Positions 47,592 through 64,000 of a DNA stretch of 64,000 bases are shown here, piece by piece (the stretch's first letter is position 1; every line of letters starts with the position of its first letter). This DNA is from Lentibacillus persicus (GTDB lineage: Bacteria > Bacillota > Bacilli > Bacillales > Amphibacillaceae): the NCBI RefSeq assembly GCF_900112705.1, contig NZ_FOMR01000009.1:1-64000 (forward strand), written 5' to 3'. The notes under the pieces were generated by a model. That model did no database searches. It saw only the letters and a program-made list of their open reading frames with translations, and had not been told where the DNA came from. Both the position numbers and the translations under genes were made by a program.

Positions 47592-47810
47592 ATGAACGAT
47601 AAGTCATCCAATCCCAACGCAATCCCTGAAAAGGTTGCAAAAGTCATGATCGATGAAATATTTCGGAAAAACAACGTAAACCCTGAAGAAATTAAAAATA
47701 ATTTATCGAATGACCAGAAAAAAATGCTGAAGGATATGGTTGAAGATCTAAGAGAACAGGTGAATCAATTTAACAAAGGCGAAAAAGATACGACGAAAAC
47801 AGATGAATAA
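47592..47810 (+). CDS. Small CotW-like spore coat protein
   Basis: 72 aa hydrophilic helical protein (KVAKVMIDEIFRKNNV, then NLSNDQKKMLKDMVEDLREQV). Its pattern resembles B. subtilis CotW from memory, and it sits directly before CotX and CotV homologues as in the cotVWXYZ cluster. The resemblance is short, so the name is tentative. It ends in its own terminator. Confidence 0.6.
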   Translation: MNDKSSNPNAIPEKVAKVMIDEIFRKNNVNPEEIKNNLSNDQKKMLKDMVEDLREQVNQFNKGEKDTTKTDE

Positions 47811-49109: not shown

Positions 49110-49261
49110 TGGCCTTAAAATAATTCCTGGGGATGGGGAGTAATCACAAGAAGCGAAGATATCCCCCCCCTCCCCGGAGGTCTTTAATTTAAGTCCTAAT
49201 TTGGTTTTCCATCAAAATAGGACAAGAGCACAAAATATTGTTAACGAAAGGAATGAATAAA

Positions 49262-49645
49262 ATGGTTAATCTGACAAACCGTCAACGGGGCCTGTTACGT
49301 CTGGCCAATCAATTATCCCAAAACTTAGTTAATGATAATACGGATAACGGTTTAAACCACAACTTTTCAGTTGATTTACCGGGCGTTGACTTCGATGGCG
49401 GACTCAATTTAAATTTCGGTAAAGATGATGAAACAGATACCACTGACCCGTCACCTTCAGCACCTGAAACGCTAAGGGATGTATTTCTAAGATTACAGAA
49501 TGAACAAGTAGAGGTAACAACCCCTTTTGGCCCAGTAACCGGTACAGTCATTGCGGTTCAGAATGACTATGTTGCATTGGTTGAAGCCGATGGGTCACAA
49601 ACGCTTATTCCATTCGCAAACATTGAATTGGTCAGTGAATTATAA
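49262..49645 (+). CDS. DUF2642 domain protein, coat-cluster associated
   Basis: 127 aa. An Asn/Asp-rich N-terminal half (NDNTDNGLNHNFSVDLPG) is followed by a DUF2642-type beta domain (LRDVFLRLQNEQVEVTTPFG, then IPFANIELVSEL). DUF2642 domains are common in Bacillus proteins near coat genes. ATG at 49262 has AAAGGA 9 nt upstream. A role in the spore surface is inferred from context only. Confidence 0.65.
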   Translation: MVNLTNRQRGLLRLANQLSQNLVNDNTDNGLNHNFSVDLPGVDFDGGLNLNFGKDDETDTTDPSPSAPETLRDVFLRLQNEQVEVTTPFGPVTGTVIAVQNDYVALVEADGSQTLIPFANIELVSEL

Positions 49646-49658
49646 AGGAGGAATTTAA

Positions 49659-49874
49659 ATGTTTCAGGACACGTTTGCGGCTGAATTAGCCACACGTATT
49701 GGTTCAAGGGTTGAAGTGGCTACCGACAACAACTTGATAGAAGGCATCCTCTCCACCGTAACAGCTGATTTAGTACTTGTTGTTGAGGTTAACAGTGGTT
49801 ATGGTGAAAACACCACATTATACTTGTCAATAGACGCCATCAACTTCGTCCGATTCCCAGCTGCAGCCGCTTAA
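49659..49874 (+). CDS. Short DUF2642-like protein
   Basis: 71 aa, essentially one small beta domain (RIGSRVEVATDNNLIEGILSTVTADLVLVVE) related to the C-terminal part of the preceding protein, and ending FPAAAA. It follows 13 bp after that gene with an AAGGAGG site, so they form a two-gene operon, closed by a strong terminator. Confidence 0.65.
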   Translation: MFQDTFAAELATRIGSRVEVATDNNLIEGILSTVTADLVLVVEVNSGYGENTTLYLSIDAINFVRFPAAAA

Positions 49875-50016: not shown

Positions 50017-50955
50017 CTAATGAGGTGTATCAATGGAATCTGTTATTTGATTAGCAATTATAAGTGCCCGCTTGCCATCTTCTCCTGAAACAGATGGGTC
50101 TGTGCCGGCTTTAACGCAATTAATAAAATCCATTAACTGGAGGAATAACGGCTGTACCGAACGCCCGACCTGTATCTTTTGTGAAAGAGGAATCGGATGA
50201 TTTCCAGTTTCTTCGCTGAATGTTCGTGTTACATTGATCTCATGGTTTAGTATATCTGCCTCAATAAACGCTCGCTCTGTCTGAATTTGTATAGTACGGA
50301 CTTTTCTTCCTGACATGAAACTTGCAGTAAGTTGTGCAGTAACCCCTTGTGACGTTCTGATGACCGCAGCTGCGTGTTTTGGTGTATTTTTGATGACTTT
50401 CCCAAAAGCACTGACTTTCAGAGCATTACCCAGAAACAATTCATTTAAAATATAGATATCATGAATCATTAAATCTTTCACAACGTCTACATCGCTAAAC
50501 TTAACGTTTGCAGGGCTTATTCTATGGAAAGCTGCACCGACTATAGACTCACCTTTGAGCAAATTCAGCAGCACCTGAATGAACGGATTGTAAAGCTCGA
50601 TATGTCCTGCTTGAAGTTTAACACCTGCTTCAGATGCTTCTTTGATCAAATGATCAGCATCTGTAATGGTAGCAGTCAGTGGTTTTTCCATCAGCATATG
50701 AACGTTGTGTCTAACACATTCCAAACCAATTTTATAATGAAAGTCAGTCGGTACTGCAATGCTAACAGCATCAACTGATTTTAGAAGGCCATCGACGGAT
50801 TGAAACGGTTTAACGTTATACTTTTGCGCAACCTGAAGTCTTTTCTGTTCATCATCATCATAAATACCTATAAGCTGGCAATCATCATTCATTGACAAAT
50901 ACGTACGTACGTGATTTTCTCCCATATTGCCAGTCCCAATCACACCGACTTTCAT
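50017..50955 (-). CDS. Gfo/Idh/MocA oxidoreductase, WbpB/WlbA-like UDP-sugar 3-dehydrogenase
   Basis: 312 aa. NAD-binding VGVIGTGNMGENHVR at the N-terminus, the catalytic-region EKPLT near residue 93 and AGHIELYNPFIQ near 121; the last is like the GHIERFNP segment of WbpB/WlbA enzymes. These oxidise C3 of UDP-GlcNAcA before transamination. With the aminotransferase, acetyltransferase, epimerase and dehydrogenase genes nearby, a role in UDP-2,3-diacetamido-uronate synthesis is likely but inferred. ATG at 50955 follows GAGGGG; the TTG two codons upstream is less likely. Confidence 0.75.
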   Translation of the reverse strand: MKVGVIGTGNMGENHVRTYLSMNDDCQLIGIYDDDEQKRLQVAQKYNVKPFQSVDGLLKSVDAVSIAVPTDFHYKIGLECVRHNVHMLMEKPLTATITDADHLIKEASEAGVKLQAGHIELYNPFIQVLLNLLKGESIVGAAFHRISPANVKFSDVDVVKDLMIHDIYILNELFLGNALKVSAFGKVIKNTPKHAAAVIRTSQGVTAQLTASFMSGRKVRTIQIQTERAFIEADILNHEINVTRTFSEETGNHPIPLSQKIQVGRSVQPLFLQLMDFINCVKAGTDPSVSGEDGKRALIIANQITDSIDTPH

Positions 50956-51000
50956 AGACAATCCCCTCTTTTTTTAAATTACTAATTTTTCCCGCCTAAA

Positions 51001-51350
51001 CGGGGAATAAACCGCCCTAGTACAGCAGTCACCTGGCCCTAAACGCCTGATTGGTTCGGGCCAACAGGATGTTGTCACAAAGGCATTGCCACAGGTCGTG
51101 GCGAACTTAGCCTTTGTTCATCACATTCAGTGAAGAAAACCATTTCACTGATTGAAGTTTTACTTTTCCACTCATCTAATGGACAGTAGACCGCCCAAGT
51201 ACGGCGGCCAACTGTCCCTAAATGCCTGATTTGTTCGGGCCAACAAGATGTTGGTCAGAAAGGCGTTGCCACAGGACGTGGCGAACTTAGCCTTTGTTCA
51301 TCTCAATCAGTGAAGAAAACCATTTCACTGATTGAAGTTTCACTTTATCT
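51001..51350. repeat. 180-bp structured element, tandem duplicate
   Basis: Two diverged copies (about 51001-51170 and 51181-51350) have an exact 180-bp period. Each contains GCCCTAAA/TCCCTAAA..GTTCGGGCCAAC, a GCCAC-N5-GTGGC hairpin, the invariant GGCGAACTTAGCCTTTGTTCAT and a perfect 8-bp hairpin TCAGTGAA/TTCACTGA. Small indels break any shared reading frame, so it appears non-coding. It lies between the divergent oxidoreductase and the first glycosyltransferase and could be leader RNA for either. Confidence 0.8.
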
Positions 51351-51443
51351 TATGCGTCAGCTATAAAACGAGCTAGACTATCAGACCAATTAGGAGAAAA
51401 TTGGCCTCTGCCTGTAGGAATGCCTGAGAGAGGAGGTGAAAGC

Positions 51444-52367
51444 TTGGTTCATATTCTATTGATTGCCGAAGATACTTCCAGACATTTGAATAAAAACTTC
51501 TTTTACTTGGAGAAAGAACTAACAAAACGAATACATTTAACACTGTGGCGAAAGCCGGGGCATATCCGTCATATTTTAAAACAGCTTCCACGAAGACCTG
51601 ATTTTATCCTGTTGTTGAATGATCTGGACCGAAAAATACATCCGATGATTAAAGGTCTTGGCCACATCAATATTCCTACCGGTTTATTTATCAATGATGT
51701 CCACCGCTTTACAAAGTTACGGAAAAACTTCATAGAAAAAAATGACATAAACCATTTGTTTACCGTGGTGCGGGATAAATTTTTAATGACCTATCCGGAA
51801 TATGAAATGAAAATGGAATGGTTTCCTCACTTTGTCAATCCAAATCTCTATAAAGACTATGGCTTGACTAAGGATATCAATCTATTAATGATGGGAGCCG
51901 TTAACGATAATTATCCACTAAGACAAACAATTATTAACGCCTATCAGGGCGATGCAGATTTTATTTATCACAGCCACCCGGGATACCGGCATTTTTCGAA
52001 AGAAGAAGAAAACCAGCATTTTATCGGAAAAACGTATGCAAAAGAGCTCAACCGATCCAGAATTTTCTTCACCAGTCCATCCGTATTGAATTACCCGGTT
52101 ATCAAGTATTTTGAGGTTTTAGCCTGCCGATCTCTCCTTTTAGCACCTGCATTTAAGGAACTGAAGGATTTAGGTTTTATCCCTAATTTCCATTTTGTTC
52201 CGATAAACGAACACAATTTTAAAGAAAAGGCTGCATATTATTTAGCACATGAAACAGAAAGACAGCAAATTGCCGATCAGGGTTATCGCTTCATCCATGA
52301 ACGGCATACTGTTCAACAACGGACAGAACAGCTTATCAAACGCATCGAAAAAATACTTGAACAGTAA
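51444..52367 (+). CDS. CgeB-like glycosyltransferase
   Basis: 307 aa without membrane segments. A GT-B-type fold is suggested by GLFINDVHRF, HFVNPNLYKDYG (like CgeB-family acceptor/donor linker), and the C-terminal donor region VIKYFEVLACRSLLLAPAF near residue 219. CgeB in B. subtilis acts late in spore surface glycan formation. The start is TTG at 51444 with AGGAGGTGA upstream. It is the first gene of the four-gene plus-strand operon 51444-55434. Confidence 0.7.
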   Translation: MVHILLIAEDTSRHLNKNFFYLEKELTKRIHLTLWRKPGHIRHILKQLPRRPDFILLLNDLDRKIHPMIKGLGHINIPTGLFINDVHRFTKLRKNFIEKNDINHLFTVVRDKFLMTYPEYEMKMEWFPHFVNPNLYKDYGLTKDINLLMMGAVNDNYPLRQTIINAYQGDADFIYHSHPGYRHFSKEEENQHFIGKTYAKELNRSRIFFTSPSVLNYPVIKYFEVLACRSLLLAPAFKELKDLGFIPNFHFVPINEHNFKEKAAYYLAHETERQQIADQGYRFIHERHTVQQRTEQLIKRIEKILEQ

Positions 52368-52382
52368 AAAGGAGGAATTCAC

Positions 52383-53075
52383 TTGTCTTCCGTACCTGAA
52401 AATACCCAGCTCGGAAAACACGTTGTTATAGAAAATAATGTCGTAATTGGGGAAAATGTCACAATCGGTCATAACACAACCATCCTGCAAGGAACCCAGA
52501 TAGGTGATGATGTCATCATTGGCAATAATTGTGTCTTGGGAATCAAAACATCCGGCAACGAACGGATGCGAAAAAAAGCTGACAAATATGGCAGCTTGAA
52601 TATCCAATCCGGATCCAGAATAGGAAATATAGCATCCATCTATGCCGGGACCGACATTGGTAAAAATGTGTTCATCGGTGATCATGCGAGCATCAGAGAA
52701 AATGTGTCGATTGGTGATAAATCTGTGGTCGGCAGAGCTGCAATCGTTGAATTGAACAGTACAATCGGTGACTCCTGCACCATTCAAACACTGGCATATG
52801 TAACAGGAGATACGACATTGGAAGACAATGTCTTTATCGGCCCGTGTGTATCCATGTCGAATGATAAATATATGGGAGCTAAAAACTTCACCCTGAACGG
52901 GCCGTATATAAAAAGTGGTGCTAAAATCGGCAATAATGCTTCATTGCTTCCTGGTATTACAGTGGGCCGTAACAGTATAATCGGCGCCGGCGCTGCCGTT
53001 ACGAAAGATATAGAAGATAATATAACAGCTGCAGGGGTCCCTGCTAAAAGGCTTAATTCTGATGGTAATAAATAG
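52383..53075 (+). CDS. Left-handed beta-helix N-acetyltransferase (WbpD-like)
   Basis: 230 aa made of hexapeptide repeats (IGENVTIGHNTTILQGTQIGDD and so on), with the acyl-CoA site region DNVFIGPCVSMSNDKYMG near residue 149 and the terminal IIGAGAAVTKDI...AAGVPAKR typical of sugar O/N-acetyltransferases. The FIGP..SNDKY segment recalls WbpD, which acetylates the 3-amino group of UDP-GlcNAc3NA. It starts at TTG with AAAGGAGG upstream, 15 bp after the glycosyltransferase gene. Confidence 0.78.
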   Translation: MSSVPENTQLGKHVVIENNVVIGENVTIGHNTTILQGTQIGDDVIIGNNCVLGIKTSGNERMRKKADKYGSLNIQSGSRIGNIASIYAGTDIGKNVFIGDHASIRENVSIGDKSVVGRAAIVELNSTIGDSCTIQTLAYVTGDTTLEDNVFIGPCVSMSNDKYMGAKNFTLNGPYIKSGAKIGNNASLLPGITVGRNSIIGAGAAVTKDIEDNITAAGVPAKRLNSDGNK

Positions 53076-53129
53076 CCTACCCACCTCATTCTCAACAAGC
53101 AAACATACCAGCACGAAAGGTGGATTGTA

Positions 53130-54350
53130 ATGGCCAAAAAAGTTTGTATAATTGTTGCTCACCATCCGTTTACTGATGCAAGAATTTTTAAGAAAGAGGC
53201 AAAAAGCTTACAGAAAAAAGGCTATCATATCACCATGATTGTCCCGAGACAAAGCGGAAGATTGTTTGACATTGATGGCACCCCGTTTCGAAAACAATTC
53301 CTAAATAAAGTTTTTACCTATGAAGGCATTAAAGTAGTTACGTACCATTCCGAGAGCACTCAGAAGGCATTAAGTACTGTATTAAGCAATGAAAGTGTCT
53401 GGGAAAGACATGGGTTTAATAACACCCTCACACAGCTTGCCATTCAGGAAGACGCTGATATATACCATGCACACGAGTATCTCTCGCTGTTTGCCGGAGT
53501 TGGCATTAAGCGGCAGATGAAGAAAAAGAAAGGGAAAGATGTCAAATTAATATACGACAGTCATGAGTTGACGCCAGACCCTTTAGATCCACGATATACT
53601 AAGGAACGAAGAGATCTTTTGAAACAAAGGCTTCTGACAATGCTTGATGAAGTTGATCATGTTATAACGGTCTCCGATTCAATTAAATCATGGTATTTAT
53701 CTCATAAACCGGATTTGCCCGTTGACGTTATCTATAATTCGCCCCCGCTAGCTCAGCATCATAAGCCGAAAACGTATAACTCGAATGGGCTAACAGTGGG
53801 CTATGAAGGTAATATTGTCGCAAGCCAAGGCAAGATGGAGAAGATCCTCTGCATCTCTGAATTATGTTCAAAAGAGTTAGAGTTTGAATTCAAAATTATT
53901 GGAGGAAGCCGGTATGGCGATTCCAAGATACCAACGCATCTGCCGCATCAGATCATGTTAACTGGATGGATCGACTACCATGCCCTTCCAAAGACAATGG
54001 ATAATGTTGATATAGGGATGGTCGATTTAGAAAGCGTCAAACACTCGCTTAACCAAGATTATGCATTGCCGAATAAATTTTTCAGTTATCTGAACAACGG
54101 TGTACCGGTGGTGGTTAATAAATGTAAAGAAATGGAGGAATTTATCAATAGACACCATTGCGGCTTTGTAATCGACAAAACAAATGCTACCTCGCAAGAT
54201 TTTGCTAATGCCTTTCTTTCGCTTCATCAGGATATGAACAAATTACAGCGAATGAGCCAAAATGCCCGCCATGCAATGGAAAGGTTCTATTCCTGGGAAC
54301 ACATGGAGAATCGGCTTTTCGCTGTCTACCAATCACTTTTCGCAACATAA
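53130..54350 (+). CDS. GT4-type glycosyltransferase, paralogue 1
   Basis: 406 aa GT-B fold. N-terminal acceptor domain (VCIIVAHHPFTDARIFKKEAKSL), ADIYHAHEYLSLFAG near residue 109, YDSHELTPDP near 141, donor-side VDVIYNSPPLA near 203 and YALPNKFFSYLNNGVPVVVN near 311. It is clearly paralogous to the protein at 58429-59646 over its full length. The cytosolic donor sugar is unknown. Confidence 0.82.
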   Translation: MAKKVCIIVAHHPFTDARIFKKEAKSLQKKGYHITMIVPRQSGRLFDIDGTPFRKQFLNKVFTYEGIKVVTYHSESTQKALSTVLSNESVWERHGFNNTLTQLAIQEDADIYHAHEYLSLFAGVGIKRQMKKKKGKDVKLIYDSHELTPDPLDPRYTKERRDLLKQRLLTMLDEVDHVITVSDSIKSWYLSHKPDLPVDVIYNSPPLAQHHKPKTYNSNGLTVGYEGNIVASQGKMEKILCISELCSKELEFEFKIIGGSRYGDSKIPTHLPHQIMLTGWIDYHALPKTMDNVDIGMVDLESVKHSLNQDYALPNKFFSYLNNGVPVVVNKCKEMEEFINRHHCGFVIDKTNATSQDFANAFLSLHQDMNKLQRMSQNARHAMERFYSWEHMENRLFAVYQSLFAT

Positions 54351-54411
54351 ACATTTAATCCATGTAATCAATTTGCTTTTTTTTACAATACAGGAAGGAA
54401 GGTGCAGCGTT

Positions 54412-55434
54412 TTGAAATCTGAACCGATTCGTAATATTAACGTAACCCTGCATGATGAGTTTGAGTTAGAAGGGAAAAAAATAGGTAATGAGCTATTTAT
54501 ACCAGTTTCGTTAATCGAAAAAGGATTAAATCTAGAAAAACAATGGAACGAAAAAACACAGACATTAAAGTTAAAGCAGACACATGCGAACGTATTCGAT
54601 ATCAGTCATTACGACAGCACGGGAAATTACTTGCACTATGACAAAAATAAGGTAGAAAACTGGAATGTAACATTCACTCGCGAAGGAATTCCCAAAACCA
54701 AATATTCGCACGGTGCTTACTTTAACCCCTCCACTATCGCTCAATATGGATTGCAGCATTACAGTCTATATTTAAAAACGAATGACACATCGAATAAGTA
54801 TAAATTCCTGAAAGCAGCTGATTGGTTTGTAAATCACCAGGATTCCCATGGCGGCTGGGCCTATCAATTCAACCATGATTTCTTTCCAGGCAGACTGAAT
54901 AAACTGAAGGCATCATGGTATTCAGCAATTGGTTTGGGTATGGCTATGTCGGTTTTATCGAGGGCATCCTTTCTGACGAAAAATAGCAAATACAGTTCAT
55001 GTGCTTTAAAAGCCAAGGTACTATTTAAAAACCCGTCTGCCGGGAATGGTGTGCTGACTAAATTTGAAAACAAGTATCTATTCTATGAAGAATGTCCGAC
55101 ATATCCGCCAAGTTATATTTTAAATGGGTTCATGTTTTCATTAATCGGATTATATGACTTATTTAAAGCAACACACATTAACGAGGTAAAATGGCTGTAT
55201 GACAGAGGGATTGCCACTTTGAAAAGAATGCTTCCGCTCTACGATTTAGGACACCGGACAGCATATGATCTGACACATTATACAACTGATGGCGGCTACC
55301 CGAATGTTGCCACCTGGGGGTATCATATTGGGCATATTCATTTGCTGGCTACTCTAAATTCGATTGAAAAAGACCTGAAAATGAACGAAGCCCTCCAAAG
55401 GTGGAAAGGGTATTTAAAAGGAAAAACAATTTGA
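54412..55434 (+). CDS. D-glucuronyl C5-epimerase-family protein
   Basis: 340 aa. Residues 1-55 form a small beta module resembling copper-amine-oxidase N-like stalk domains. Residues 130-335 match the C5-epim_C domain of heparan-type epimerases: KASWYSAIGLGMAMSVLSRA (166-185), YEECPTYPPSYILNGF (225-240), MLPLYDLG (273-280), YDLTHY (285-290) and HIGHIHLL (305-312). That family inverts C5 of uronic acids in a polymer (GlcA to IdoA). No signal peptide or membrane segment is visible, so it is presumably cytoplasmic. TTG start, AAGGAAGG upstream. Its substrate here is inferred to be a uronate polymer from this cluster. Confidence 0.82.
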   Translation: MKSEPIRNINVTLHDEFELEGKKIGNELFIPVSLIEKGLNLEKQWNEKTQTLKLKQTHANVFDISHYDSTGNYLHYDKNKVENWNVTFTREGIPKTKYSHGAYFNPSTIAQYGLQHYSLYLKTNDTSNKYKFLKAADWFVNHQDSHGGWAYQFNHDFFPGRLNKLKASWYSAIGLGMAMSVLSRASFLTKNSKYSSCALKAKVLFKNPSAGNGVLTKFENKYLFYEECPTYPPSYILNGFMFSLIGLYDLFKATHINEVKWLYDRGIATLKRMLPLYDLGHRTAYDLTHYTTDGGYPNVATWGYHIGHIHLLATLNSIEKDLKMNEALQRWKGYLKGKTI

Positions 55435-55444
55435 ATAAGAACAG

Positions 55445-55485
55445 AAAAAAGCTAAGTCGTTCTTCACCTCCGACTCAGCTTTTTT
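55445..55485. terminator. Bidirectional terminator, C5-epimerase and 2-epimerase genes
   Basis: AAAAAAGCT-A-AGTCG pairs with CGACT-C-AGCTTTTTT; it overlaps the end of the minus-strand epimerase gene. Confidence 0.8.
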
Positions 55486-56560
55486 CATGCCAGTTCTTTG
55501 CCAAAGTCTTTGCAATTTGGTGTGCGGCGTGACCGTCCCCGAAAATTGGCGGCGATTCTTCGGGTCTATGAAGTTTCATAACTTTATCCGCTATTGCCTC
55601 TTGATTCGCCCCTGCCAGCCGGTTCCAGCCCGTTTCAACAGTTTCTGTCCATTCTGTTTCATCCCTCAGTGTGACACAAGGAACCTGAAGCATATACGCT
55701 TCCTTCTGCAGCCCTCCGGAATCAGTCAGAACAATATTCGCTTTAGAAACAGCGGTCAACATATCAAAATAGTTTAATGGGTCCACCACTTTAATATGAG
55801 AGCCCTCGACTAAATCATTTAATTGGAATGCGTTAATTTTGCTTTTCGTTCTGGGATGCAATGGCAGGACAGTCGTCTTCGCAAATTGGTGGAATGCTTC
55901 AAGAATGGATTTGAGGCGCCTTGGGTCATCTGTGTTTTCCGCCCGATGAATCGTGGCCAGGTAATAATTATTTTCGGATAACGATAAATCTTGCAGAATG
56001 GTGGATTGCTGCACAGCATATGATTTAAAGTGGCGAATGGCATCATACATAATATCACCGGTAACATATACAGATTGATTAATCCCTTCCCGTTTCAGGT
56101 TTTCAGCTGCCACCTGAGAAGGACAGAACAGCCAGTCAGAGAGATGATCTGTCACCACCCGATTAATCTCTTCAGGCATTTTCCGGTTAAAACTGCGCAA
56201 TCCGGACTCTATATGGGCAATCGGGATATGCAACTTTGATGCTGCCAGACTTCCAGCAAGTGTGGAATTCGTATCGCCATATACAACGACAATGTCAGGG
56301 TTAATGGAAGTCATAACGTGTTCCAGTTCTGATAGCATTTTTCCTGTTTGCTCCCCATGCGCCCCGGACCCAATACCCAAATAATAGTCCGGTTCAGGAA
56401 TGTTCAACTGTTTAAAAAAGATATCGGACATACTGGTATCATAATGCTGCCCCGTATGAACAATGATTTCCTTCACTTCAGTACATGACTTCAAAATTTT
56501 TGACAGCATGCACGCCTTGATAAATTGTGGTCTGGCTCCAACAACCGTTAATGTTTTCAT
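55475..56560 (-). CDS. Non-hydrolysing UDP-sugar 2-epimerase, WbpI-like
   Basis: 361 aa, WecB fold. The N-terminal motif is VVGARPQFIKA rather than the GTRPEAIKM of UDP-GlcNAc 2-epimerases; the GARPQFIKA form is typical of WbpI-type enzymes acting on UDP-2,3-diacetamido-glucuronate. Also present are VYGDTNSTLAGSLAASKL near residue 90, AHIESGLRSFNRKMPEEINR near 112 and TDSGGLQKEAYMLQVP near 284. It overlaps the upstream gene by 4 nt and ends a three-gene minus-strand operon. Confidence 0.85.
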   Translation of the reverse strand: MKTLTVVGARPQFIKACMLSKILKSCTEVKEIIVHTGQHYDTSMSDIFFKQLNIPEPDYYLGIGSGAHGEQTGKMLSELEHVMTSINPDIVVVYGDTNSTLAGSLAASKLHIPIAHIESGLRSFNRKMPEEINRVVTDHLSDWLFCPSQVAAENLKREGINQSVYVTGDIMYDAIRHFKSYAVQQSTILQDLSLSENNYYLATIHRAENTDDPRRLKSILEAFHQFAKTTVLPLHPRTKSKINAFQLNDLVEGSHIKVVDPLNYFDMLTAVSKANIVLTDSGGLQKEAYMLQVPCVTLRDETEWTETVETGWNRLAGANQEAIADKVMKLHRPEESPPIFGDGHAAHQIAKTLAKNWHEKS

Positions 56561-57543
56561 AAGTCCTTCTCTTCTTTCGCAGCTCTTACCCAATTGACCG
56601 TATTGCTGACCCCGTCTTTAAAAGGGGTTTTATTATATTGGCCGATCATCTTGTATAATTTATTGACTGATGCCCTATGGCTTTGAACATCTGCTGTCCG
56701 CTGGGGCTTTCTTAAAGTTTTCCCCTGATAGTTCATAACGCTTTCAATTGTTTCCACAACATACTTAATTGATAATTTTTGGTCGGTGGAGATATTAACG
56801 GAGTCACCGCGAGACATAAATGGGAAGACTTTTATTGCCATATCAGCGGTATCTTCAACGTAAACATAATCTCTTGTCTGCTTGCCGTCTCCATGAATCT
56901 CAGGGTAATAATTTTCCAGGATTTTTTTAATAGTAATTGGGATAACACCAGCCATAGGTCCTGCAAAATTCTGCCGCGGACCATAATTATTGAATGGCCT
57001 GACAATAAAGGCGTCCAGGCCAAACATTTTCACATAGGTCCGAAGCATTAAATCCGCCGCAGCTTTTCCGGCTGCATAAGGTGTTTCAGGGTCAAGGGGG
57101 TGCTCTTCATCCATGGGCTCGTACTGAGAGGAACCATATGCCTCCGATGAGGAGAAATGGCATAATGTCTGAAATTTTTTCTGCCGCTGAAACTCCAGCA
57201 AATTTTTTACGACTTGCACATTTGTCAAAAACGTATTGGAAGGATTGATAAATGAATAGTTCAATGGCTTTGTAGCACAGTTGAAAACGATATCAATCGC
57301 GTGCCTTTCGATAATATAACCCAGCGCTTCCTGATTCTCAGCATCATCTACATAAAACGTTGCCCCATTGTTTAAAGCCTTCTTAATATTGGCCTTTTTC
57401 CCTATAAAAAGGCTATCTACAATGACAACCTGATTAGCCCCTTCATCTGCCAACCGATCTGCCAAATGACTTCCGATAAAGCCGGCTCCGCCTACAACCA
57501 ATACATTGCTATTTACAATTGACTGTCGTCCCAATTCTTTCAT
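56557..57543 (-). CDS. NAD-dependent epimerase/dehydratase (extended SDR)
   Basis: 328 aa. Rossmann VVGGAGFIGSHLADRL near residue 17, HFSSSEAYG and catalytic TPYAAGKAAADLM (YxxxK) near 155, NNYGPRQN near 184 and HGDGKQTRDYVYVEDTA near 215. This is the GalE/UXS group; the sugar is not determined (4-epimerase, decarboxylase or dehydratase). The drawn ATG lies directly on GAAAGGA; a TTG at 57534 has better spacing, so the N-terminus is uncertain. Confidence 0.78.
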   Translation of the reverse strand: MKELGRQSIVNSNVLVVGGAGFIGSHLADRLADEGANQVVIVDSLFIGKKANIKKALNNGATFYVDDAENQEALGYIIERHAIDIVFNCATKPLNYSFINPSNTFLTNVQVVKNLLEFQRQKKFQTLCHFSSSEAYGSSQYEPMDEEHPLDPETPYAAGKAAADLMLRTYVKMFGLDAFIVRPFNNYGPRQNFAGPMAGVIPITIKKILENYYPEIHGDGKQTRDYVYVEDTADMAIKVFPFMSRGDSVNISTDQKLSIKYVVETIESVMNYQGKTLRKPQRTADVQSHRASVNKLYKMIGQYNKTPFKDGVSNTVNWVRAAKEEKDL

Positions 57544-57556
57544 TCCTTTCAATTCG

Positions 57557-58315
57557 TTAAAAATTCAACCGTGACTGTCCGCCATCAACCGAAATCGTCG
57601 TCCCCACTATCCAGGACGCTTTATCAGACGCTAAAAACACAGCCGTATCACCGATCTCTTCAGGTTTTCCCAGCCGTCCTGCCGGAATTTTATCCCTGGC
57701 ATATTTTTTTAAATAAGCCGGGTCATGTTCAAGCCTCCGTTCCCATTCCTTATTGGGATGATAAACTGCACCGGGGGCGATGCCGACGACCCGAACATTA
57801 TCTTTAATGACCTCTGAACTGAATGCTTTGGTAAAACTGATTAATGCAGCCTTGGAAGCATTATAGGAAGGCGAGCCACCGGATTCTTTCCCGTATATGG
57901 ACGAAATATTGATGATGACTCCCTCTTCATTTTCTATCATGCTCTGGACCGCTAACTGACTTAAATGGATTGCCGATATGAAGTTTAATGCCATTGCGTC
58001 TTCAAACACATTTGGCGGCGTATTTAGAACTTGGTTGCCATGATTGGCCGCAGCATTGTTAACAAGTATGTCAATGGTATTAAAATCATCGATAAATTCA
58101 AAAACCAACTGTTCTCTATGTTCGGGTTTTAACAGATCTTTTTGATAAATTTTTTGAATACCCATTTCTTTTTTTGTCTGCAAAAGCTCGGTGTAAGACC
58201 TCGATGCAATGCCAACCTGTGCGCCTTCAGCAAGAAATGCCTGGGCAATTGCTTTCCCAATCCCCCTTGCTCCTCCGGTTACCAGCACTTTCTTCCCTTT
58301 TAGATTCAACTCCAT
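57557..58315 (-). CDS. Classical SDR oxidoreductase (FabG-like)
   Basis: 252 aa. TGGARGIGKAIA (residues 14-25), NNAAANHG near 90, ISSIYGKESGGSPSYNASKAAL (Ser/Tyr/Lys triad) and the C-terminal IVGTTISVDGGQSRLNF. In this cluster it may make or modify a nucleotide sugar, but classical SDRs have broad substrates. First gene of the minus-strand operon 58315-55475; GGGGAGGGGAG precedes it. Confidence 0.75.
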   Translation of the reverse strand: MELNLKGKKVLVTGGARGIGKAIAQAFLAEGAQVGIASRSYTELLQTKKEMGIQKIYQKDLLKPEHREQLVFEFIDDFNTIDILVNNAAANHGNQVLNTPPNVFEDAMALNFISAIHLSQLAVQSMIENEEGVIINISSIYGKESGGSPSYNASKAALISFTKAFSSEVIKDNVRVVGIAPGAVYHPNKEWERRLEHDPAYLKKYARDKIPAGRLGKPEEIGDTAVFLASDKASWIVGTTISVDGGQSRLNF

Positions 58316-58428
58316 CTTCTCCCCTCCCCGTAATCAGTGCTTTACCTTACTTTCCTAATTGTATGAATAAATCTTGAAAATTGTTAATACGTTAGCAGTA
58401 GTGCTTTAGCCAACTTCAGGAGGGAATC

Positions 58429-59646
58429 ATGGTGAAAAGAGTCTGTTTCTTAGTATCTGAACACTCATTTTTGGATGCGAGGATTTTCAAAAAACAAGCA
58501 AAAAGCCTGCTGAAACAAGGTTATACGGTAACAATGATTGTACCCAGAAGAAAAGGATACCTGTTTGCTGTAGATGGAAGTGTTTTAAAGGAGACATTTT
58601 TAAGTCAGACGTTTAGCCATGAAGGCATCAATGTTGTGACATATGAACAGTTGGAACTGGAGAAACACATAAAAGCACTGTACCATCACCTTCGTTCCGG
58701 GGGTCATTCCCGTTTCAATCATCCCCTGACAAAGATTGGCATTGATCAAAAAGCTGATATTTATCATGCTCACGAGTTTATGTCATTATATGCTGGAATT
58801 GGAATAAAACGGGCTTTAACGGCAAACGGAAGGCAATGCAAATTGATTTATGACAGCCACGAATTAGAGCCCGATCCTTTGGTTAATGAATCCCGCAATA
58901 CGCATAATATTAAAATGAAAATGCTGAAACTTATGCTAAGCGAACTGGATCATGTGATAACCGTATCGGAATCCATTAAGACATGGCACCGCACCATACA
59001 TCCTCATGTGCCCATCGACGTAATTTATAATTCTCCCCCTTTAGCAGCTGAATATAACCCCTCCAAGGCTGCCACCCGAGAAATTGTCCTTGGATATGAA
59101 GGGACTCTGAATCGCAAAAGGGGCAATTTCCGGAAACTCATTCACATTTTGAAGAAGTGTCAGCAGCATTTTCCATTGAAAGTCAAAATCATTGGAGGAG
59201 GCAAGCATTTCGAAAGAGATTACCTTCAGCAACTGGTCCCACACGTCAAAGAGAAAATTGCGTATACTGGCTGGGTAAACTATGAAGCAATTCCTGAAGC
59301 CATGAAAGAAGTTGATATCGGATGGATCGACTTAGATGCTGCCAATTCCTTGAATAACCGCTTTGCGATGCCAAACAAGTTCTTCAGTTATTTGAATAAC
59401 GGTGTGCCGGTTATCGTCAATCAATGCACTGATATGGAAAATTTTATTAAAGCATATAATTGCGGCTACACTGTTAAAAAACAGCAAGCTACCGCCGGGG
59501 ATTATGTGCGAACGCTGATCCATGCGGCATCAGACAGAAACAAAATTCGGGAGATGGGTTCGTCTGCACGCAACATCATGGAGACCATGTACAGCTGGGA
59601 ACACATGGAGAAGCGATTGTTCACTGTTTATCGCCAATTATCATAA
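58429..59646 (+). CDS. GT4-type glycosyltransferase, paralogue 2
   Basis: 405 aa. It shares motifs in the same order and spacing with the 53130-54350 protein: DARIFKKQAKSLLKQGYTVTMIVPRR, ADIYHAHEFMSLYAGIGIKR, YDSHELEPDP, DVIYNSPPLAAEY, FAMPNKFFSYLNNGVPVIVNQC, YSWEHMEKRLF. The two genes probably arose by duplication within the cluster and may add similar or alternating residues. AGGAGGG precedes the start. Confidence 0.82.
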   Translation: MVKRVCFLVSEHSFLDARIFKKQAKSLLKQGYTVTMIVPRRKGYLFAVDGSVLKETFLSQTFSHEGINVVTYEQLELEKHIKALYHHLRSGGHSRFNHPLTKIGIDQKADIYHAHEFMSLYAGIGIKRALTANGRQCKLIYDSHELEPDPLVNESRNTHNIKMKMLKLMLSELDHVITVSESIKTWHRTIHPHVPIDVIYNSPPLAAEYNPSKAATREIVLGYEGTLNRKRGNFRKLIHILKKCQQHFPLKVKIIGGGKHFERDYLQQLVPHVKEKIAYTGWVNYEAIPEAMKEVDIGWIDLDAANSLNNRFAMPNKFFSYLNNGVPVIVNQCTDMENFIKAYNCGYTVKKQQATAGDYVRTLIHAASDRNKIREMGSSARNIMETMYSWEHMEKRLFTVYRQLS

Positions 59647-59667
59647 GACTAGGAAAGGATGGTCAAG

Positions 59668-60672
59668 ATGCGGGTATTGCATTTGCCTTATGGCTCGCCT
59701 ATGATTGAATTGTCCAATGCACTGCGGTCAAAAGGCATTCAGTCGACATCATGCCATTTCAATAAACACCCGTTTGAATTCAAGCCTGATATTTGTCTGC
59801 AGCTGAATACGTTGTCGAATCAGGAACAAACAAAAAAACTGAAGCAATTTTTAAAAGAATCGATGCTTCATTATGACATTTTTCATTTTCATTTCGGTGA
59901 AACTTTTTTTGCTGACAAAAGCGACCTGAAAATGCTGGAACGTGCCGGAAAAAAGATGGTTGTTCATCATCACGGTTCGGAAATCAGACTTAAATCGATT
60001 GCCCAAACAAATAACCCTTACGTCCGGATAAAACCCGAATGGACTGAAGAAAAGATCAATCGAAATAACAGTATGCTGGCAAATTATATCGATCATGCGA
60101 TTGTTCAAGATTATGAATTGGAATCATATATTAAAACTGCCTATAAACATGTCCACGTTATTCCACACACCATTGATGCCAATCAGTATACACCACGTTA
60201 TCCATCCCCTAAAAATGCATCTCCCCTTATTGTACACGCTCCGTCATCGAGGCATATGAAAGGGACGGAATTTATTATTGATGCAGTGAACGAATTGAAG
60301 CGTTCAGGCTTATCATTCCAATTTCAATTAATTGAAGGCGTTTCGAATGAGGAAGCCAAAAATCTTATAGCCAAGGCAGATATCGTTATCGATCAATTGC
60401 TTATTGGTGCCAATGGTTATATCAGTTCAGAAGCCATGGCATACGGAAAGCCAGTCATATGTTATATAAGACACGACCTTGTAGCAAAGTACCCATCGGG
60501 ACTGCCTGTCGTCAATGCGAATCCTGATACCATAACCGCTGTTTTAAAAAACCTTCTGCAAAACCCACAAAAGTGGAAAGAGCTAGGTGTGAAAGGGAGA
60601 CAATATATTGCAAAAAATCACCACGCTCCAATAGTGGCGGACCACTATATTGACATTTATAAGACGTTATAA
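59668..60672 (+). CDS. GT4-type glycosyltransferase
   Basis: 334 aa GT-B protein: acceptor side MVVHHHGSEIR near residue 95, VIPHTIDANQY near 165, donor side HAPSSRHMKGTEFIIDAV near 186 and IVIDQLLIGANGYISSEAMAYGKPVICY near 240. It resembles family-4 enzymes but is not close to the paralogous pair. ATG at 59668 has AAAGGA at 8 nt. It lies 21 bp after the previous gene and ends at a terminator. Confidence 0.78.
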   Translation: MRVLHLPYGSPMIELSNALRSKGIQSTSCHFNKHPFEFKPDICLQLNTLSNQEQTKKLKQFLKESMLHYDIFHFHFGETFFADKSDLKMLERAGKKMVVHHHGSEIRLKSIAQTNNPYVRIKPEWTEEKINRNNSMLANYIDHAIVQDYELESYIKTAYKHVHVIPHTIDANQYTPRYPSPKNASPLIVHAPSSRHMKGTEFIIDAVNELKRSGLSFQFQLIEGVSNEEAKNLIAKADIVIDQLLIGANGYISSEAMAYGKPVICYIRHDLVAKYPSGLPVVNANPDTITAVLKNLLQNPQKWKELGVKGRQYIAKNHHAPIVADHYIDIYKTL

Positions 60673-60707
60673 GCAGTCCAGCGAACTAAGGATTGGACTG
60701 CTTTTTT
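60671..60707 (+). terminator. Terminator of the glycosyltransferase pair
   Basis: AAGCAGTCCA pairs with TGGACTGCTT, followed by TTTT. Confidence 0.88.
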
Positions 60708-60734
60708 CTGGAATCTCATTAGTCAGTCCAATCG

Positions 60735-60763
60735 TTGCTGTTTTCACTTCCATAAACTATACA
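60735..60763 (+). promoter_or_regulatory. Promoter region of the UDP-sugar dehydrogenase operon
   Basis: A sigma-A reading is TTGCTG (60735-60740), 17 bp, TATACA (60758-60763). The overlapping CATAAACTA at 60751-60759 also matches the sigma-K -10 form CATANNNTA. Sequence alone does not decide between them. Confidence 0.45.
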
Positions 60764-60780
60764 ATAAACATCTTAATCTT

Positions 60781-62127
60781 ATGACGACAGAAATGGGGTT
60801 TGACATCATCATGACAGATTATAGTGAATCACTGCCAAATGTAGCAGTCGTCGGTCTCGGCAAGATAGGATTAACATTAGCCGCTGTTTTTGCCAATCAT
60901 CGTTATAACGTTTTCGGTGCAGATATCAATCCCGATGTCGTAGCATCGGTAAACCAAGGTACATCTCATATTCAAAATGAGCCGGGCTTGGATGAGTTGG
61001 TATGGACTGCCCATCATAATAATACATTGTCAGCTACAACAGCCACCGCGGAAGCCGTCAGTCAAGCAGATACAATCATTGTAATTGTACCTGTATTAAC
61101 AGATGAACAGAACCAGATTGATTATCGAATGATTGACCGTGCTGTTGAAGATATCGCGATGGGCATTAAAGAAGATGCGTTGGTTATTTTTGAAACAACA
61201 CTCCCGCCAGGGGACACCGAAAATCGCTTCGGAAAAATGATAAAAGAAATTTCAGGTCTGCGTCCGGGTCAAGACTTTAATCTTGCCTACAGTCCTGAAC
61301 GGGTCTATTCCAATCAAATTGTTCACGATTTACAGCATTACCCGAAAATCGTCGGCGGCATAAATGAAAAAAGTCTTGAACGTGCTGCAAACTTCTATAA
61401 AAAAGCACTTGGCTGCGAATTAATCGAAGTGAGTTCGCTGGGAACAGCTGAATTTGCAAAAGTAGCCGAGTGTGTTTATCGCGATGTCAACATTGCGCTG
61501 GCCAACGAATTGTCCATGTTTGCAGAGGAAAAAGATATCAATATGGCTGAAGTGATAAGTGCCAGCAACAGCCAGCCATATTCCAATATCCACTCGCCCG
61601 GCATTGGAGTCGGTGGGCATTGCATTCCAATCTATCCGTATTTTTTCATCAATAAAGGATTAAGCGAAGGACTCACCCCTTTATCGCGAAAAATCAATGA
61701 CAGCATGCCTGATTACGCTATCACCAAAATTGAAGAACGGATTGGGTCGTTAAGCGGTAAAAATATTCTCATTTTAGGTTTATCATATCGCGGAAATGTC
61801 AAGGAACCAACCAAATCAACTGCATTAAGGCTGATTGATCAGCTTCAGAAAAAGGGAGCAAATACATTTGTCAATGATCCGTCATTTTCTGACCGTGAAA
61901 TCAGCCAGTATGGCGTCACTCCACTAGCGTTAAATAATCAGTACTGTTCCGAAATAGATGGTGTTATTCTGCAGGCTTTTCACGACGCATACAACGCTAT
62001 TGACTTCAGCCATTTCACCAAGTGTCAGCTCATTTTGGACGGAAGGAATAAACTAAATCAAAAGGAAATCAATCGCCTTGGCATTACTTATGAAGGAATC
62101 GGTAATGAAGGAGGCTTGACATTTTGA
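60781..62127 (+). CDS. Nucleotide-sugar 6-dehydrogenase (WbpA/WecC-like)
   Basis: 448 aa. NAD-binding VAVVGLGKIGLTLAAVFA near residue 22, AYSPERV near 175, the catalytic Lys region AEFAKVAECVYRDVNIALANE near 230, catalytic Cys in GIGVGGHCIPIYPYFF near 277 and C-terminal ILGLSYRGNVKEPTKST near 331. Family members oxidise UDP-GlcNAc or UDP-ManNAc to the uronate; the cluster context favours UDP-GlcNAc as substrate. The start is uncertain: ATGs at 60781, 60793 and 60811 are in frame or near, and none has a strong ribosome site. Confidence 0.82.
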   Translation: MTTEMGFDIIMTDYSESLPNVAVVGLGKIGLTLAAVFANHRYNVFGADINPDVVASVNQGTSHIQNEPGLDELVWTAHHNNTLSATTATAEAVSQADTIIVIVPVLTDEQNQIDYRMIDRAVEDIAMGIKEDALVIFETTLPPGDTENRFGKMIKEISGLRPGQDFNLAYSPERVYSNQIVHDLQHYPKIVGGINEKSLERAANFYKKALGCELIEVSSLGTAEFAKVAECVYRDVNIALANELSMFAEEKDINMAEVISASNSQPYSNIHSPGIGVGGHCIPIYPYFFINKGLSEGLTPLSRKINDSMPDYAITKIEERIGSLSGKNILILGLSYRGNVKEPTKSTALRLIDQLQKKGANTFVNDPSFSDREISQYGVTPLALNNQYCSEIDGVILQAFHDAYNAIDFSHFTKCQLILDGRNKLNQKEINRLGITYEGIGNEGGLTF

Positions 62128-63248
62128 CACATCCCGAATGGAATCGAATACCAATGGTTGACTTAAAAGAAGAGTTAAGGTTAATCAGAACCCCCCTGCT
62201 GGAAATAATGACCGAAGTATTAGACAGCGGTGACTATATTTTGGGGGAAAAAGGAAATCAATTTGAAAAATTAGCAGCCCAATATGTTGGAGCTTCCTAT
62301 GGGATTGGCGCAGCAAGCGGTACAGACGCTTTAGCACTGTCTCTGAAATCTTTGGACATTGGACCGGGGGATGAAGTCATCACAACGCCTTTCACCTTCT
62401 TTGCCACGGCAGAAGCAATTGCGCAAGTTGGTGCCAGACCGGTTTTCGCCGATATAGAGGAAAATACGTACAACATTGATCCAACCCATGTTGAAAAAGC
62501 CATAACACGAAAAACCAAGGCTATTATCGTCGTTCATTTGTATGGAAGATCTGCTAATATGAGGGAGATTATGCGGATTGCTGAGGACAATGATTTATTT
62601 GTGATAGAAGATGCCTGTCAAGCTATTGGAGCAGAATACGATGGTAAACGGGTCGGCGCGATTGGAGATATTGGCTGCTTCTCCTTCTTCCCGTCCAAAA
62701 ACCTTGGTGCATTCGGGGATGCCGGCCTGGTGACAACTAATCAAGAGGGGATTTATGAAAAAATCATGCATCTGCGCAATCATGGCAGCTTGGAAAAATA
62801 CCATCATGCAGCAATCGGTATGAACAGCAGGCTTGATGAAATACAGGCAGCGTTTCTACTTGTTAAATTATATTACTTGGACATTTTCCTGCATAAGCGG
62901 AAGGAAGCCGCCAACAGGTATACCGAGAACCTGCACCCTCTCCTGAAAACACCGCCGATTGCCCAAAACCGGAAGCACACCTTTCATCAATATTGCATCG
63001 AACTTGATAAACGGAACGAACTTGCTTCCGCCTTAGATCATCATGGGATTGATTCAGCTATTTATTATCCCGTTCCATTGCATTTGCAACCGGCTTTTGA
63101 TTATCTGGGCCTAAAAAAAGGTGACTTCCCAATTGCCGAAAGAACCGCCGAACGAATCTTGGGCATTCCAATCCATCCGATGCTATCGTTCCAGAAGCAG
63201 GATTATATTATTAAAACGATAAATGATTTTTTGGAGGACAATGGTTAG
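62124..63248 (+). CDS. DegT/DnrJ/EryC1/StrS sugar aminotransferase (WbpE-like)
   Basis: 374 aa PLP enzyme. IPMVDLKEEL at the N-terminus, SGTDALALSLKSL near residue 65, PFTFFATAEAIAQVGARPVFADI near 89, EDACQAIGAEYDGKRVG near 161 and the PLP lysine in SFFPSKNLGAFGDAGLV near 190. In WbpE the enzyme installs the 3-amino group of UDP-GlcNAc3NA; that role is inferred here from context. The TTG start overlaps the dehydrogenase stop (TTGA) with GGAGG upstream. Confidence 0.85.
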   Translation: MTHPEWNRIPMVDLKEELRLIRTPLLEIMTEVLDSGDYILGEKGNQFEKLAAQYVGASYGIGAASGTDALALSLKSLDIGPGDEVITTPFTFFATAEAIAQVGARPVFADIEENTYNIDPTHVEKAITRKTKAIIVVHLYGRSANMREIMRIAEDNDLFVIEDACQAIGAEYDGKRVGAIGDIGCFSFFPSKNLGAFGDAGLVTTNQEGIYEKIMHLRNHGSLEKYHHAAIGMNSRLDEIQAAFLLVKLYYLDIFLHKRKEAANRYTENLHPLLKTPPIAQNRKHTFHQYCIELDKRNELASALDHHGIDSAIYYPVPLHLQPAFDYLGLKKGDFPIAERTAERILGIPIHPMLSFQKQDYIIKTINDFLEDNG

Positions 63249-63270: not shown

Positions 63271-64000
63271 TTATTCAAGTGATTTTAAAAAGTCATGCCA
63301 GCTGGCAAGGTTTTGTTTGGTAATGCTTTCCTTATGTTCCCGTACATTGTACACAGTGAAATCCCAATATTGAAATGCCCCCTTTTTTAATAATCGGTTC
63401 AAAACACTGACATCTTCATAAAGCCGGCCATCTGCAAAATCGATCACCGGAAAGCCGCCTTCCTTTTTTAAGGAAGAAGTGCGATAGACCCGTGGCCCCA
63501 ATGGAAAACGATAGGACAAAAGGTCTTTTCTTCCTGCAATCGACGTTCCTTTAGCCAAACCTTTATACTGCACATCATCCTTTAATTGTTTCCATTTTCT
63601 TAAATTGCCGTACAATACCGAGCCGTCAGCCGAAAGATCAGCCAGCTGTTTTTTGATAACAGAAACAGCATCGGGATCAAGCCAATCATCAGCATCAAGT
63701 TCCAATACAAAACCTGACGTTACGTGTGGCAATACTGCGTTTAAAGCCCTTGCTTTCCCTCCATTTTTTTTGCTGAACACTTGCACCCGGGGGTTATCAC
63801 TGTACCGCTTTAACCGCTGCCGCGTATTATCCGTTGACCCATCATCCATAATCAGTAATTGTTCTGCTTGTTCATTTTGCATCAAACATGACGTAACTGC
63901 CGTTTCCACATATTTTTCCATATTGTAAGCGGCCATGATAATAGAAAGGCTGGGATGATCGGTATCCGCTTTTTCCAACTGGTATTTTTTGATAAATTTT
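63271..64000 (-). CDS. Family 2 glycosyltransferase, possibly 5'-truncated by the window edge
   Basis: At least 235 aa. GT2 motifs are present: SLSIIMAAYNMEKYVETAV, LLIMDDGSTDNTRQRL near residue 42, ELDADDWLDPDAV near 92 (DXD) and DFADGRLYEDVSVL near 176 (ED general base). A TTG at 63978 could be the start, but the frame is open to the window end (KKYQLEKADTDHP) and there is no ribosome site before the TTG, so the gene probably begins outside. It adds a fifth glycosyltransferase to the cluster. Confidence 0.8.
   Translation of the reverse strand, partial: KFIKKYQLEKADTDHPSLSIIMAAYNMEKYVETAVTSCLMQNEQAEQLLIMDDGSTDNTRQRLKRYSDNPRVQVFSKKNGGKARALNAVLPHVTSGFVLELDADDWLDPDAVSVIKKQLADLSADGSVLYGNLRKWKQLKDDVQYKGLAKGTSIAGRKDLLSYRFPLGPRVYRTSSLKKEGGFPVIDFADGRLYEDVSVLNRLLKKGAFQYWDFTVYNVREHKESITKQNLASWHDFLKSLE

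Follow-up and report, generated by a model that had tools for sequence, protein, structure and literature searches.

A gene cassette predicted to make a 2,3-diacetamido-mannuronic acid glycan lies beside spore coat genes in Lentibacillus persicus and includes a heparan-sulfate-type C5-epimerase

The first 64,000 nucleotides of contig NZ_FOMR01000009.1 of Lentibacillus persicus (assembly GCF_900112705.1), referred to here as the window, contain a cluster in which five enzyme homologues are predicted to fit one pathway to UDP-2,3-diacetamido-mannuronic acid (UDP-ManNAc3NAcA). The cluster spans 50017 to about 64605 of the contig, beyond the window end, and includes five glycosyltransferases and, at 54412-55434, a C5-epimerase of the heparan sulfate type that was missed in the initial annotation of this DNA. 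It is fairly probable that the whole cassette works in the mother cell late in sporulation and glycosylates the spore surface with ManNAc3NAcA, part of which would be converted into 2,3-diacetamido-L-guluronic acid (L-GulNAc3NAcA). The initial annotation had proposed a UDP-ManNAc3NAcA set in four units beside cotX/cotV, and this part stands. The open reading frame list and family models place each of the five genes in the expected broad enzyme class. The genes form four directional blocks, namely the oxidoreductase (minus strand), the acetyltransferase (plus), the 2-epimerase (minus) and the dehydrogenase with the aminotransferase (plus). Two PF07552 coat genes lie at 47951-48646 and 48669-49109, with the small genes c135 and c71 between them and the oxidoreductase gene. 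A WbpB-like oxidoreductase and a sugar foreign to Gram-positive bacteria were not supported. The pathway genes and the C5-epimerase gene are as follows.

50017..50961, minus strand: GnnA-like oxidoreductase, putative UDP-GlcNAc 3-dehydrogenase, step 1 (sequence and fold comparison)
52383..53075, plus strand: left-handed beta-helix sugar N-acetyltransferase, probably 3-N, step 3 (domain and PDB matches)
54412..55434, plus strand: D-glucuronyl C5-epimerase homologue (PF06662, fold, catalytic residues)
55475..56563, minus strand: predicted UDP-GlcNAc3NAcA 2-epimerase, WbpI type, step 5 (PDB scores and diagnostic residues)
60781..62127, plus strand: UDP-sugar 6-dehydrogenase, step 4 (translation may truly begin at an in-frame ATG, 60811)
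62124..63248, plus strand: DegT-type sugar aminotransferase, probably acting at C3, step 2 (domain and PDB matches)

The predicted activity of the cassette 2-epimerase is of the UDP-GlcNAc3NAcA (WbpI) type. Among PDB entries it scores 401 bits against 8SXV, the T. thermophilus UDP-GlcNAc3NAcA 2-epimerase, 327 bits against the archaeal UDP-GlcNAc enzyme 4NEQ, 188 bits against CapG and 124-179 bits against the remainder. According to the available text of one report, Ala18, Tyr96 and Trp307 of the T. thermophilus enzyme admit the bulkier substrate and replace Leu/Met, His/Gln and Arg, respectively, and the M. jannaschii 2-epimerase groups with UDP-GlcNAc-acting enzymes (PMC10622841). The window enzyme possesses Ala, Tyr and Trp at these positions, the WbpI-type set, whereas a second 2-epimerase of the same genome has the classical set of Met, His and Arg. 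The alignment held 24 sequences besides that of the window (20 from cassettes and four divergent ones), and six of the 30 family-level homologues (G022, G069, G102, G122, G110 and G145) stayed out of it. Gln14, Tyr96 and Trp307 are kept in all 24 of these sequences, and position 18 is Ala, Ser, Thr or Val. The initial annotation had named grouping with WecB as a check, and both the bit scores and the diagnostic residues returned the WbpI type. A WecB-type identity is thus ruled out by the 8SXV score and by the contrast with the paralogue. NCBIfam separates neither WecB from WbpI nor WecC from WbpA, and its WecB model TIGR00236 accepts both WbpI-type epimerases tested, at 338 and 302 bits.

The oxidoreductase is GnnA-like rather than WbpB- or WlbA-like. 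It scores 127 bits against GnnA and 48 bits against WlbA, and GnnA is its best match by fold as well as by sequence. The UDP-GlcNAc 3-dehydrogenase model NF040723 gives 204 bits, below the model cut-off of 450. For comparison, the WlbA-type oxidoreductase of a canonical operon in a genome of the same family (G090) scores 246 bits against WlbA. On these scores and the fold, the WbpB-type assignment was rejected. Because the enzyme is GnnA-like, C3 is probably modified before C6 is oxidized. The G090 operon (L083:4559-9778) is contiguous and Wlb-type, with an aminotransferase, an acetyltransferase, a WlbA-like oxidoreductase, a dehydrogenase and a WbpI-type 2-epimerase; the coat-block queries gave no match in the stretch fetched around it.

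The best PDB matches of the aminotransferase are 7B0D (366 bits), QdtB (328), 7N63 (291), 2OGA (283) and WbpE (279); perosamine synthetases reach no more than 193 bits. Those of the acetyltransferase are 7S43/7S3U, QdtC, WxcM and 3MQG. For both enzymes the PDB matches favour C3 enzymes, whereas NCBIfam favours PseC and NeuD/PglB/VioB, each below its cut-off. For the dehydrogenase, the initial annotation had named grouping with WecC as a further check. This enzyme most resembles dehydrogenases of the UDP-ManNAc type (4R16 and Cap5O). Among the models, the WecC type ranks above TviB; the canonical G090 dehydrogenase, which stands beside a WlbA-type oxidoreductase, ranks them in the same way, so that this ranking leaves the substrate of the spore enzyme undecided.

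The C5-epimerase consists of 340 amino acids, and its TTG start follows a purine-rich ribosome-binding site. It matches the PF06662 model and shares the fold of the animal D-glucuronyl C5-epimerase GLCE over 330 residues (6HZZ, 4PW2). The catalytic residues of human GLCE are Glu499 and Tyr578 (PMC12834895). Their counterparts in the window protein are E227 and Y304, and the pair is present in 24 of 24 alignment rows. Unlike GLCE, whose solved chains are about 515 amino acids long, the window protein has nothing corresponding to the roughly 170 residues that separate the N-terminal part from the helical domain, and no signal peptide or anchor was seen in it by eye. The homologue from Lentibacillus sp. 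CBA3610 is 81% identical. In a class-wide sample, PF06662 was found at E < 1e-20 in only 7 of 398 genomes, the window genome included, so the gene is rare. Weak matches of 20-28 bits occur in G020, G008, G039 and G040, and as a second match in G022.

Taken together, these assignments allow a pathway to be proposed. UDP-GlcNAc would be oxidized at C3 by the GnnA-like oxidoreductase, aminated by the aminotransferase and N-acetylated by the acetyltransferase. Oxidation at C6 by the dehydrogenase and inversion at C2 by the WbpI-type 2-epimerase would then yield UDP-ManNAc3NAcA. The five glycosyltransferases would assemble the ManNAc3NAcA glycan in the mother-cell cytosol. No flippase, polymerase or ABC exporter was recognized from 50017 to 64605, so the glycan is probably built directly on coat or crust proteins. 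Finally, the signal-less C5-epimerase would invert C5 of some uronates within the chain, converting D-ManNAc3NAcA into L-GulNAc3NAcA. ManNAc3NAcA epimerized at C5 is L-GulNAc3NAcA, and the reaction is the diacetamido analogue of the M-to-G conversion of alginate. The chemistry would match that of AlgG on mannuronan and of GLCE on heparosan. With the sugar enzymes, glycosyltransferases, C5-epimerase and coat proteins all expected in the mother-cell cytosol, both building and editing could proceed without export. A further reading, somewhat less likely than not, is that bacterial spores bear a polymer built of 2,3-diacetamido-hexuronic acid and resembling glycosaminoglycans or alginate, and that a heparan-sulfate-type epimerase edits it at C5 in the cytosol of the mother cell once it has been assembled.

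The cassette is physically linked to the coat-block genes. The remaining features of the locus are as follows.

47592..47810, plus strand: small protein of 72 amino acids, ahead of the CotX genes, with a sigma-K-like -10 element upstream
47951..48646, plus strand: CotX/CotV-domain spore coat protein (PF07552)
48669..49109, plus strand: CotX/CotV-domain spore coat protein (PF07552)
49238..49645, plus strand: c135, DUF2642/YuzF-like small protein (weak match, E 0.013), a conserved cassette neighbour
49659..49874, plus strand: c71, DUF2642-like small protein (weak match, E 0.014), a conserved cassette neighbour
51061-51126 and 51240-51306, minus strand: a tandem pair of Bacillaceae-1 RNA repeats (RF01690) that separates the oxidoreductase gene from its likely promoter
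51346..51354, minus strand: candidate late mother-cell -10 element CATAAGATA of the oxidoreductase gene, about 390 bp back from the gene
51420..52367, plus strand: glycosyltransferase (PF13524), presumably CgeB-like
53130..54350, plus strand: GT4 glycosyltransferase a (domain match)
56557..57528, minus strand: GalE-like NAD epimerase/dehydratase, optional module (domain match)
57557..58315, minus strand: FabG-like short-chain dehydrogenase, optional module (domain match)
58357..58365, minus strand: CATACAATT, sigma-E/K-like -10 element ahead of the short-chain dehydrogenase gene (motif match)
58429..59646, plus strand: GT4 glycosyltransferase b (domain match)
59659..60672, plus strand: GT4 glycosyltransferase c (domain match)
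60751..60759, plus strand: CATAAACTA, sigma-K-like -10 element ahead of the dehydrogenase gene (motif match)
63271..64000, minus strand: GT2 glycosyltransferase, running past the window edge to about 64605 of the contig

The G+C content is 0.40-0.43 across the cluster, within the 0.40-0.51 range of the window.

The same arrangement recurs in the family. Among the 159 family genomes searched, the 2-epimerase was found at 60% identity or more in 26, and the acetyltransferase at 64% or more in the same 26 (partial in G145). C5-epimerases at least 62% identical to that of the window, here called type A, number 17 intact copies and one broken copy (G167); the homologue in G103 is 32% identical. All 18 genomes with type A fall within the 26 with the cassette. 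Very divergent C5-epimerases lie inside the cluster in G122 and G102 (split in G102). Twenty-five loci were mapped, that of the window included. In 21 of them the full set of five pathway genes was found, in some cases truncated where the stretch ends; in L021, L022, L074 and L078 the stretch breaks off inside the dehydrogenase gene, and no aminotransferase gene was seen. The co-occurrence of the five genes across these loci indicates an arrangement that is more than chance. Of the neighbouring genes, c71 is found in 23 of the 25 loci, c135 in 22 and one of the CotX type in 17. The GalE-like and short-chain dehydrogenase genes travel together; the pair is absent from six loci (G022, G177, G173, G107, G122 and G102), occurs without a C5-epimerase in two (G101 and G111) and appears to be an optional second-sugar module.

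A scan of named genomes gave 22 loci, several of them from the same genomes as the family loci. A WbpI-like 2-epimerase (at least 52% identity) lies within 10 kb in 18, one of the UDP-GlcNAc type in two and none in two. Of eight WbpI-like loci that were checked, the one from Paenibacillaceae has Phe at position 96, and coverage in Geomicrobium does not extend to the N-terminus. Coat-block genes accompany 14 of the 18 WbpI-linked loci, and in three named species (L103-L105) c71/c135 lie inside the cluster. The initial annotation spoke of a polymer of a halophilic Bacillaceae. Cassettes also occur in Mesobacillus, Robertmurraya and Bacillus methanolicus, which lie outside the family of the window and are not known as halophiles. 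Broken genes were also observed: the C5-epimerase gene of G167 (L080) has in-frame stops, the type-B C5-epimerase gene of G102 (L071) is split, the oxidoreductase gene of G173 (L067) is in two pieces, and the 2-epimerase and GT4a genes of Geomicrobium (L108) are each in two pieces. Cassette decay is possible in these cases.

Promoter-like motifs that may point to late mother-cell expression precede some of the key genes. The -10 consensus of the late mother-cell sigma factors (sigma-K) is CATANNNTA. It was counted within 250 bp upstream of genes, with expectations from Markov resampling and GT2 rows left out. The motif precedes the gene for the 72-amino-acid protein in 7 of 7 loci (1.1 expected), the oxidoreductase gene in 25 of 30 (3.1 expected) and the dehydrogenase gene in 22 of 30 (4.8 expected). 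Upstream of the oxidoreductase gene, 24 of the 25 sites lie at -34 to -42. As a control, 28 metabolic genes of the window were scanned, and 4 had the motif. No excess was found for the genes of the short-chain dehydrogenase/GalE-like epimerase unit, GT4c, the C5-epimerase, the aminotransferase or c71.

Other explanations of the cassette differ in the substrate of the C5-epimerase, the destination of the polymer or the order of the steps. One, which is unlikely but carries some weight, is that the C5-epimerase acts on another uronate of the glycan, such as D-GlcA (giving L-IdoA) or GlcNAc3NAcA, and that ManNAc3NAcA is a separate, unepimerized residue. In fold and catalytic pair the enzyme matches GLCE, which acts on GlcA; UDP-GlcA may be available, since one of the dehydrogenases encoded elsewhere in the genome resembles UDP-glucose dehydrogenase (UGD); and relatives of the C5-epimerase also occur at sites without a WbpI-type enzyme. 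However, no UDP-Glc dehydrogenase was recognized in the cluster, the type-A C5-epimerase is always found with diacetamido-uronate genes among the 159 genomes (18 of 18), and distant C5-epimerase lineages appear repeatedly in WbpI-like clusters. The classical Wbp order, in which C6 is oxidized first and the oxidoreductase has converged on UDP-GlcNAcA, seems improbable. It would involve the same five activities and the same end product, and P. aeruginosa is described with the C6-first order in the accessible text of PMC10622841; the bit scores against WlbA and GnnA, the GnnA fold and the preference for NF040723, set beside the WlbA-type enzyme of G090, argue against it.

That the product is a vegetative wall polymer, resembling teichuronic acid or a secondary cell wall polymer, with the coat genes as chance neighbours, is very unlikely. 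A similar secondary cell wall polymer occurs in Geobacillus stearothermophilus. ManNAc3NAcA is reported in the teichuronic acid of Streptomyces griseus (PMC13274773). Nevertheless, coat-block genes stand beside 23 of the 25 family loci as well as most WbpI-linked named loci, although the two sets overlap in genomes, and in L103-L105 two of the coat-block genes are inside the cluster. The sigma-K-like sites lie at a near-fixed distance from the oxidoreductase gene, YuzF-type genes accompany a related plasmid cluster of Priestia, and no exporter was recognized in the cluster, whereas a relative in B. pinisoli possesses an ABC exporter.

Several observations weigh against a spore glycan of C5-edited ManNAc3NAcA. 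The best NCBIfam model for the aminotransferase is PseC, a 4-aminotransferase, at 255 bits (cut-off 423.5), a preference that the canonical G090 aminotransferase shares, and that for the acetyltransferase is NeuD/PglB/VioB at 118 bits (cut-off 160.8). The genome encodes three further UDP-sugar dehydrogenases, one of them UGD-like by eye. Beside the catalytic Glu, Cys replaces Tyr (human Tyr500) in type A only, and other WbpI-linked C5-epimerases keep the Tyr. No C5-epimerase was found in the fetched stretches of G101, G107, G111, G173 and G177, at least five of the 26 cassettes, so this enzyme is optional; G145, the eighth of the 26 without type A, was not mapped. In Salibacterium, a Paenibacillaceae metagenome-assembled genome and Geomicrobium, the C5-epimerase and 2-epimerase occur with no oxidoreductase, dehydrogenase or aminotransferase within 10 kb. 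Relatives of the C5-epimerase in B. pinisoli and Pleurocapsa adjoin UDP-GlcNAc-type 2-epimerases. The related Priestia plasmid has no oxidoreductase in 13.5 kb, and its acetyltransferase is of the GNAT type. Among the motifs, many dehydrogenase sites precede the start codon used by as little as 16-30 bp, and none is enriched at the head of the block running from the CgeB-like glycosyltransferase through the acetyltransferase and GT4a to the C5-epimerase (7 of 31, 4.4 expected). Operon heads are not the only place where the motif is found, since the acetyltransferase gene, which lies within this block, is preceded by the looser CATANNNT in 20 of 31 (8.1 expected). The strict motif is also missing within 250 bp of the oxidoreductase gene of the window, which counted as a miss among the 30 loci, because the two Bacillaceae-1 RNA repeats separate the gene from the site at 51346-51354. 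This RNA has 51 related pieces in the genome.

The predicted spore pathway shares its five activities, end product and 2-epimerase diagnostic residues with the Wbp/Wlb systems (WbpA-B-E-D-I of P. aeruginosa and the T. thermophilus homologues). It differs in the GnnA-like oxidoreductase, the distribution of the genes in four blocks amid glycosyltransferases, the added C5-epimerase and the position beside coat genes with sigma-K-like motifs. GnnA of Acidithiobacillus ferrooxidans (7BVJ) is a UDP-GlcNAc 3-dehydrogenase with a role in the diaminoglucose of lipid A, whereas the cassette enzyme would feed a uronic acid instead. AlgG and AlgE belong to a different protein family from the C5-epimerase, and their substrate lacks the acetamido groups of the one proposed here. 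The proposed chemistry is alike, being conversion of a D-manno to an L-gulo uronate inside a polymer, as given in the available text of a 2015 review, according to which the target of the characterized bacterial C5-epimerase is not known (PMC4432689). RED65_08024 of Bermanella is a bacterial C5-epimerase likened to the present one from papers only.

The crust genes of B. subtilis (sps, yfn and cge) are comparable in spore-surface glycosylation and in their link to crust or coat proteins, and the PF13524 glycosyltransferase presumably resembles the cge product. The sps genes make legionaminic acid, according to the accessible text (PMC7439481), while the cassette predicts a 2,3-diacetamido-uronate and includes a C5-epimerase. 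The sugar itself is not limited to Gram-negative bacteria, from whose O-antigens the initial annotation knew the pathway best. The utr cluster of S. griseus likewise gives a Gram-positive ManNAc3NAcA polymer, there a vegetative wall polymer, with no C5-epimerase mentioned in the available portion of the report (PMC13274773), and a Cutibacterium acnes polysaccharide contains ManNAc3NAcA, as stated in the part of the source at hand (PMC6598116). These two reports rule out a sugar restricted to Gram-negative bacteria.

Neither the sugar pathway nor the C5-epimerase family is new in itself, and it is their combination that gives an unusual, testable prediction. Among titles and passages, in a search that mostly did not cover subscription papers, no literature was found that connects an epimerase of the GLCE type with diacetamido-uronic acids or with spores. 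We know of no earlier polymer-level C5-epimerase for diacetamido-uronic acids, nor of one for a spore, so that the enzyme would be the first of either kind. Outside a few species, most spore crust glycans have yet to be mapped. If the proposal is right, a recurrent cassette, present in 26 of 159 family genomes, in further genera and in related form on Priestia plasmids, predicts a strongly acidic, C5-editable spore polymer, and the analysis suggests that bacterial spores carry an editable heparin- or alginate-like polymer. It would also provide a bacterial C5-epimerase whose natural substrate can be predicted and a possible route to L-GulNAc3NAcA, which is known chemically from O-antigens.

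More distant clusters extend the comparison. Two Priestia megaterium plasmids encode a C5-epimerase (35% identity) and a 2-epimerase (62%). The one that was opened, NZ_CP151784.1 (L118), also encodes a dehydrogenase (62%), an aminotransferase (65%), glycosyltransferases, a YuzF-family homologue of c135 and a homologue of c71. Its plasmid location suggests mobility of surface glycan genes of this kind. In the C5-epimerase tree, the Priestia protein stands with those of Chloroflexi and Deinococcus, outside the type-A group; the branches of G122, G193, the phage protein described below and G103 are very long and their placement is unsure, and the split G102 gene was left out. In G103 and G193, C5-epimerases of 30-32% identity lie near 2-epimerases of 46-50% identity with Tyr96 and Trp307. 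Bacillus pinisoli (L110:2507-16819) has a C5-epimerase in an ABC-exporter polysaccharide cluster with a dehydrogenase and a UDP-GlcNAc-type 2-epimerase. This cluster would give ManNAcA, with an L-GulNAcA polymer as a possible product, and the pairing suggests that the C5-epimerase family may follow mannuronate-type pathways.

A divergent C5-epimerase homologue in G332 of family f50 (L057:8830-9990) has an N-terminal hydrophobic segment and lies beside CbiA and GATase_3 genes, with no sugar cluster seen in its surroundings. Pseudomonas phage vB_Pae_BR161a (L119:3899-5545) encodes a 548-amino-acid hypothetical protein with a C5-epim_C match of 121 bits and a weak F5/8-type C domain, and 15 P. 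aeruginosa phage records matched in all. Since P. aeruginosa can carry a ManNAc3NAcA O-antigen, as described in the available text of PMC10622841, a glycan-directed role of the phage protein is conceivable.

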